This document shows positions 14,347 through 15,659 of a DNA stretch of 64,000 bases, in pieces (the first letter of the stretch is position 1; every line of letters starts with the position of its first letter). Source of the stretch: Desulfosporosinus sp. FKB (GTDB taxonomy: Bacteria > Bacillota > Desulfitobacteriia > Desulfitobacteriales > Desulfitobacteriaceae); assembly GCF_002196705.1 (NCBI RefSeq), contig NZ_NADJ01000035.1:62270-126269 (forward strand), in the 5' to 3' direction. A program made the translations under genes and the position numbers. The notes beneath the pieces were generated by a model, which had not been told where the DNA came from, searched no databases, and worked only from the letters and a program-made list of their open reading frames with translations.

Positions 14347-14967
14347 TTATTCTTTGAGTTTCAAATCCAGGGAAAGCCCATCAGAGGTTAATTTTGTGCC
14401 AAAAACAAGTTTCTCCAAATCCTCGTAACTTTGAACCCCAAAAGCAGTCCCGCCTTCAGCAACAAAATACGGAACCCCAGGGATTCTCAAGTCTTGAGCT
14501 TCCTCTAAATCTTGCAAAACCGCCGGTTCATAATCCTTCGAGAGCAATGCTTTCCGAAATTGTTCCGGATCAAGTCCGGCTTCTCCGGCCAAATCTGCTA
14601 ATACCTCGAGATCATTAATGTCTTTCTGTTGTTGAAATTGGGCCGCAAACACAATGTTATGATACTGATCTCCCTTCCCATGCTCTTCCGCATACTTTGC
14701 ACCTTGCAAAGCCAACCGGGAATGCTTGCTTTTATCATTAAATACCATCTTTATGCCATATTTGCGTCCCATAGCTTCAATGCCCGCCTTCGCCCGTTCC
14801 AGATACTCAGGCGGTTTAGGCGGAATTTCCACTCCCTCCGGCCTTAATTCGAAGGACTTCCATTCTACTTCCAAATTTTTATCCTTGGCCAACTGGTCAA
14901 GGGGGACTTTCCCAATCATACAAAAGGGTCACAAGAAATCCGAAAAAACAGTAATTTTGTTGGCCAT
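14347..14967 (-). CDS. DsbA/FrnE-family oxidoreductase, selenoprotein (UxxC active site)
   Basis: The true gene starts at ATG 14967 (GGAGAT nine bases upstream) and reads MANKITVFSDFL, then an in-frame TGA at codon 13 (14931-14929), then PFCMIGKVPLDQ. In ordinary FrnE-like proteins the aligned motif is SDFxCPxC, so the TGA replaces the nucleophilic first cysteine and gives U-P-F-C. The remaining 190 residues are full-length and intact (HSRLALQGAKYAEEHG, then the cis-Pro loop PGVPYFVAEGG), arguing against decay. A SECIS-like hairpin follows at 14902-14883. A plain translation starts after the TGA at 14919 and loses the active site. Predicted role: cytosolic thiol-disulfide exchange; substrate unknown. 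Confidence 0.85.
14883..14902 (-). promoter_or_regulatory. Candidate bacterial SECIS hairpin of the FrnE-like gene
   Basis: On the mRNA, CCUUGACC-AGUU-GGCCAAGG forms eight stacked positions with one A-C mismatch. The four-base loop has G in second position followed by U, and begins 34 bases after the UGA, inside the spacing generally accepted for bacterial SECIS elements. A weaker GGG-AAAGU-CCC hairpin at 14913-14903 is an alternative. Confidence 0.6.
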
Positions 14968-15029
14968 TATTTAATCTCCTTTTAGTTCAAGAATATTGGC
15001 AAACCATATTATCCTTTATTACTGACACT

Positions 15030-15659
15030 TTATAGTTCAGTATAAAAAGGCATCTGCTCTCCGGTCAATGCCGCAATTTTCCAGAGATAATCATTGCCCA
15101 TATTCTCCCGCTTATCTTCTTGAAATCCTTTGCCTTTGAAGAGGGCTAAAGTACTGCGATTAGCGGCATAACCAGATAAATACCTGGCGCCTTGTTCTTT
15201 GGCAAAAACTCTTAAATTATTAAGTACTTGATCAATCAATTCATCGCTGAGAATATCAAAATCTTCATTTTTGACGAGAACAATATCATTGATAAAGACT
15301 TCTTGCTTATTGAGTTTGGAAATATGCAGAGTGATCAACTTATCTTCATAACCTAAACTATCTTCCCAAAGAATTTGTGGTAATTCTACGCCAATTAAAT
15401 CACCAAGTTCAGGCTTCCCTTTATTAGACTCATAATATTCATGCAGCAGTTCAACTAATCCCAAGCTATAAGCCCTTGCTTGCACAGAGATATTATATTG
15501 AGCAGGATACTTCGTCTTGATCTCCTCATCACGAAACACCTTAAGCCCAGGATTCCTGCCAATTTCTAAGGTTATCTTATCCAGCGGAAAGATACTGTTA
15601 ATCTGCTCCTGCGAAGGACTCCACTCTTCAGAATAAATATGCCTTGGTTTTAGTGACAT
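15030..15659 (-). CDS. Hypothetical protein with GNAT-like C-terminal half
   Basis: A 209-residue soluble protein. The C-terminal region FAKEQGARYLSGYAANRSTLALF followed by KGKGFQED resembles the last beta-alpha unit of a GNAT acetyltransferase (residues moving with the ligand and the GF turn), but no clear Q/RxxGxG/A acetyl-CoA loop is seen. The N-terminal half (ITLEIGRNPGLKVFRDEE) is not recognised. It follows GAAAGGCG and is probably monocistronic, upstream of the selenoprotein gene by about 60 bases, so read-through between them is possible. Function unknown. Confidence 0.65.
   Translation of the reverse strand: MSLKPRHIYSEEWSPSQEQINSIFPLDKITLEIGRNPGLKVFRDEEIKTKYPAQYNISVQARAYSLGLVELLHEYYESNKGKPELGDLIGVELPQILWEDSLGYEDKLITLHISKLNKQEVFINDIVLVKNEDFDILSDELIDQVLNNLRVFAKEQGARYLSGYAANRSTLALFKGKGFQEDKRENMGNDYLWKIAALTGEQMPFYTEL

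Follow-up and report, generated by a model that had tools for sequence, protein, structure and literature searches.

DsbA-like proteins with a UxxC redox centre have been catalogued since 2005, when they were described under COG2761 in a Sargasso Sea study (PMC1088965), and in 2006 a second report gave them for genomes including that of Desulfotomaculum reducens (PMC1794560). In a 2016 survey covering more than 5,200 organisms, the DsbA-like selenoprotein is assigned to 41 of them, with 45 in the second column of the table, a figure taken here as genes (PMC5029168). Finally, a "DsbA-like protein form 1" with PF01323 and UxxC was listed in 2026 (PMC13188914). The gene analyzed here agrees with this catalogued selenoprotein (COG2761; PF01323) in its Pfam domain, in the UxxC motif and in the predicted placing of Sec at the first active-site position. 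As DsbA-like UxxC selenoproteins have been on record since 2005, it is not of a new kind but of one already known, Clostridia included; the first-pass annotation of the locus had noted UxxC thioredoxin-fold selenoproteins in anaerobic Clostridia. What is newly documented is that a DsbA/FrnE-like selenoprotein, and the recoding signal that goes with it, extends through an entire genus: Desulfosporosinus is not mentioned in the main texts of PMC1088965, PMC1794560 and PMC5029168 where searched, we found no description of a two-hairpin AGUU signal at +34 in the main texts, and literature searches turned up no bacterial selenoprotein under the name FrnE.

The closest solved protein is FrnE of Deinococcus radiodurans (DR_0659; PDB 5CNW/5CP1/5XWH), the best PDB match both by sequence (E 8e-19) and by fold. 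DrFrnE is a cytoplasmic disulfide reductase/isomerase, in which a C-terminal CX4C motif helps regeneration (PMC8945050). It differs from the Desulfosporosinus protein in possessing Cys where the latter would have Sec, and in the CX4C motif itself, which is missing from the selenoprotein, whose translation contains Cys16 as its sole cysteine. The U13-P-F-C16 motif aligns to C22-P-W-C25 of DrFrnE, so that the in-frame TGA indeed falls on the first active-site cysteine of the FrnE/DsbA family, as initially proposed. The PF01323 (DSBA) model matches residues 5–187, spanning the TGA, with 123.5 bits against a cut-off of 25.6 (E 1.2e-35). No NCBIfam model exceeded its cut-off; the only match, NF041057 (35.5 bits vs. 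a cut-off of 190), is listed as DsbG-like (PMC13188914). An AlphaFold2 model built from 25 sequences (mean pLDDT 83) adopts the thioredoxin fold, into which a helical segment is inserted, and places residue 13 just ahead of the first helix. Its nearest solved folds are those of DrFrnE (E 1.4e-12) and Streptomyces SCO1869; HCCA isomerases and kappa GSTs rank lower. V165-P166 lies at what we take to be the Val-cis-Pro position expected beside the active site in thioredoxin-fold enzymes. No signal peptide was evident in the 206-residue product.

The gene is located in a 64-kb stretch of Desulfosporosinus sp. FKB DNA (the window; 64,000 nucleotides). The host assembly comprises 5.12 Mb in 40 contigs, and its nearest relative is D. 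acididurans; the gene of D. acididurans M1 is 93% identical, and this was the sole organism matched in a genome-contig scan. Viral contigs, scanned for a pattern combining the TGA with its SECIS stretch, gave no match. The coordinates of all features are collected in Table 1.

Table 1. Features of the Desulfosporosinus sp. FKB locus (positions within the window).
Feature	Position	Strand	Basis or remark
CDS, predicted FrnE/DsbA-like selenoprotein, 206 residues, Sec13, TAA stop	14347..14967	minus	translation with TGA=U; PF01323; 27 genus orthologues
Shine-Dalgarno AGGAG, 8 nt 5' of ATG	14976..14980	minus	sequence
In-frame TGA, codon 13, U of U-P-F-C	14929..14931	minus	TGA in 27/27 orthologues; aligned to C22 of D. 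radiodurans FrnE
Cys16 (TGT), second active-site residue	14920..14922	minus	alignment: invariant
Putative SECIS hairpin I, GGGA-AAG-UCCC, starting 15 nt after TGA	14903..14913	minus	invariant at all four pairs; third position in the loop free
Putative SECIS hairpin II, CCUUG-A-CC-[AGUU]-GG-C-CAAGG	14883..14902	minus	fold -8.6 kcal/mol; synonymous freeze
V165-P166, Val-cis-Pro position	14470..14475	minus	P166 invariant; cis state assumed
Upstream partner gene	15030..15659	minus	adjoins selenoprotein gene in 26/27 genus loci

The good start and ribosome binding site initially noted hold up, with the ATG at 14967 and AGGAG ahead of it, and the coding sequence is intact on both sides of the TGA: P-F-C follows directly, with 193 open codons up to the TAA at 14349–14347. 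Such an arrangement is rare in the window. Among its 2357 TGA triplets on both strands, two combine an upstream start preceded by a Shine-Dalgarno sequence in an open frame with at least 100 open codons downstream. One is the TGA of the selenoprotein, with 193 codons and the Pfam DSBA match; the other (33887, minus strand, 104 codons) looks like chance, judged from its translation alone.

As anticipated, table-11 ORF calling of the locus recovers 14347..14919 only, with a start 3' of the active site. The TGA could accordingly be a stop or a decayed codon in front of an ordinary truncated gene, beginning at Met17 (14919) and encoding 190 residues without the first active-site residue, a reading for which this mechanical ORF speaks. 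Yet, no good Shine-Dalgarno sequence precedes 14919, and conservation within the genus points the other way. An orthologue is present in 27 of the 30 Desulfosporosinus genomes examined (of the other three, two have a completeness of 79% and 85%, and the last has a listed completeness of 98% but 9% contamination), and codon 13 is TGA in all 27 and Cys in none. The frame is otherwise open in every case, at identities down to about 61%, and is free of decay. Across the genus, the gene start and the stretch of 12 codons leading up to the TGA are kept, and the flanking residues S-D-F-L (5') and P-x-C (3') are invariant. Together with the synonymous freeze downstream of the TGA described below, this renders a truncated gene very improbable. 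Standard gene calling leaves the catalytic residue outside the gene, so that annotation of the enzyme easily goes wrong throughout this genus of sulfate reducers.

The region 3' of the TGA retains an unusual degree of constraint. The mean pairwise synonymous difference is 0.092 in codons 19–28 (18–47 bases after the TGA), vs. 0.498 in codons 36–200. No other 10-codon window of the gene has so low a value, and none of 20000 permutations of codon columns reached it. Codons 19–28 contain ten third positions. Eight of them are paired or form the loop G of AGUU, and these are all frozen wherever the amino acid is retained. The other two (columns 24 and 30) vary; they fall in the loop of hairpin I and at the joint between the hairpins, and are the only two that are unpaired outside the apical loop. 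RNAalifold predicted both hairpins in the frozen stretch, GGGA-AAG-UCCC and CUUG-A-CC-AGUU-GG-C-CAAG, the second being the AGUU-loop hairpin already noticed 34 bases after the TGA (loop at 14894–14891). In effect, the genus-wide freeze is a natural map, and a clear one, of a bacterial SECIS.

The published bSECIS model requires a loop of 3–9 nt with a G at loop position 1 or 2, a distance of 16–37 nt from the UGA, a stem of 4–16 bp and an MFE of -7.5 or lower (PMC13188914). Hairpin II of the window sequence agrees with it throughout: the loop is of 4 nt with G second, followed by U, the distance is +34 nt, the stem has 7 bp with one A.C mismatch, and the fold reaches -8.6 kcal/mol. The outer pair (14902/14883) is found in about half of the sequences, and in about half of the relatives hairpin II alone folds at about -5.4 kcal/mol, weaker than the -7.5 of the model. 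The MFE of the full 66-nt stretch was no better than that of shuffled sequences. L030, L041 and L087, the last from another family, have a standard A-U pair in place of the A.C mismatch. No covariation on both sides of the stems was detected within the genus, because the hairpins barely vary there; this measure being uninformative, the synonymous-site test was applied.

A comparable signal occurs in another gene of the same genus. Sec-SelD, used as a positive control in 20 genomes (L011, L117–L135), shows a similar synonymous freeze after its TGA, and its UGA is followed by two tandem hairpins; the second of them has an AGUU-type loop, a CAAGUUUUG core at about +32 and one compensated change (A/G vs. 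U/C). Like the selenoprotein gene, Sec-SelD and the formate dehydrogenases of the host genome have an in-frame TGA and a downstream hairpin with a G in the loop, and the AGUU-type loop is common to SelD and one FDH-like gene (L084). These proteins represent families different from the FrnE/DsbA-like selenoprotein, and the FDH hairpins are positioned closer to the UGA than its AGUU hairpin.

The genes on which the first-pass annotation had made its reading depend, selA, selB, selC and selD, are all encoded in the host genome. Of the two selD genes, one adjoins selA and itself has an in-frame TGA, the other has none, and tRNA-Sec (selC) with a UCA anticodon is located near selB. Three formate-dehydrogenase-like genes also contain an in-frame TGA, with hairpins 3' of the UGA. 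UGA is the leakiest stop codon, and this general property lends some credit to readthrough by another route (a near-cognate tRNA, or insertion of Trp or Cys), the RNA structure then serving something else. Against it stand the complete Sec machinery and the other Sec genes, the occurrence of Cys at the active-site column in non-Sec homologues, and a structure situated at SECIS distance that resembles the SelD signal of the genus, so that we consider this route even less probable than truncation. A sequencing error for TGC or TGT, which a single base could account for in one genome, is refuted as practically inconceivable by the same codon in 27 genus genomes and by TGA in further Firmicutes families.

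Given the conserved TGA, the available machinery, the synonymous freeze and the fit of hairpin II to the bSECIS model, the UGA at codon 13 is almost certainly read as selenocysteine, as first proposed; the homologues concur, since, among the more distant ones within the phylum, several families carry TGA at this column and other families carry Cys. Taken as a whole, the sequence evidence makes it highly probable that the gene encodes a SelB-dependent FrnE/DsbA-like selenoprotein, in which Sec is inserted through a coding-region bSECIS, with a predicted role as a cytoplasmic thiol-disulfide enzyme. tRNA-Sec and SelB would decode the UGA under the direction of the element 15–46 nt downstream, i.e., the short hairpin followed by the AGUU-loop hairpin, to yield a 206-residue thioredoxin-fold protein with a U-P-F-C redox centre.

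The selenoprotein is most likely a cytoplasmic enzyme, a thiol-disulfide reductase or isomerase, with location, direction of the reaction and substrate all predicted. Sec generally raises the reactivity of selenoenzymes, and this enzyme may have the raised thiol-exchange reactivity initially proposed for it. The selenolate of Sec13 would attack a substrate disulfide (or a peroxide), and Cys16 would then resolve the resulting mixed selenyl-sulfide to leave U13 bonded to C16. Since Cys16 is the only cysteine, this bond would have to be reduced by another protein, presumably a thioredoxin-type reductase.

The recoding signal is not fixed in position within the family, which uses at least three: the SECIS loop lies 34 nt from the TGA in Desulfosporosinus and L087, 28 nt in L109, and 20–21 nt in other Clostridia-type sequences and in a second Sec paralogue of two Desulfosporosinus genomes (G015, G025). 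Such a signal at three distances in one family makes both the Cys-to-Sec change and the origin of the signal directly testable. The FrnE tree, which includes 14 Cys rows, needs four Sec/Cys changes, three of them forced by well-supported branches, and suggests more than one Cys-to-Sec conversion. We tentatively entertain, as a serious but slightly disfavoured possibility, that Desulfosporosinus gained the Sec of its FrnE separately from other Firmicutes, together with a two-hairpin SECIS of its own (+34 vs. +20 to +28 elsewhere). If true, the family would record repeated Cys-to-Sec conversion with an independently invented recoding signal. As a separate observation, some Desulfosporosinus genomes possess a second, distant FrnE paralogue with an in-frame TGA (L112 in G015, L113 in G025 and L114 in G026); L112 and L113 have their SECIS hairpin at +21, not +34, and L114 is positioned at a contig end. 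TGA-containing FrnE homologues were also noted within or beside otherwise Cys-bearing branches (L109 in G440 and L108 in G416), and are candidates for separate Cys-to-Sec conversions.

As for the gene context, the upstream partner gene and the selenoprotein gene probably share an operon in much of the genus, since they are adjacent in nearly all loci (Table 1) and commonly 2–6 nt apart. The partner had no match in Pfam, NCBIfam or PDB; by eye only, its C-terminal part is acetyltransferase-like. The downstream genes vary within the genus. In this genome a URO-D-like gene is found there, and in many relatives (e.g., L043) its place is taken by a gene for a small protein of the sulfite/nitrite-reductase type, named by eye.
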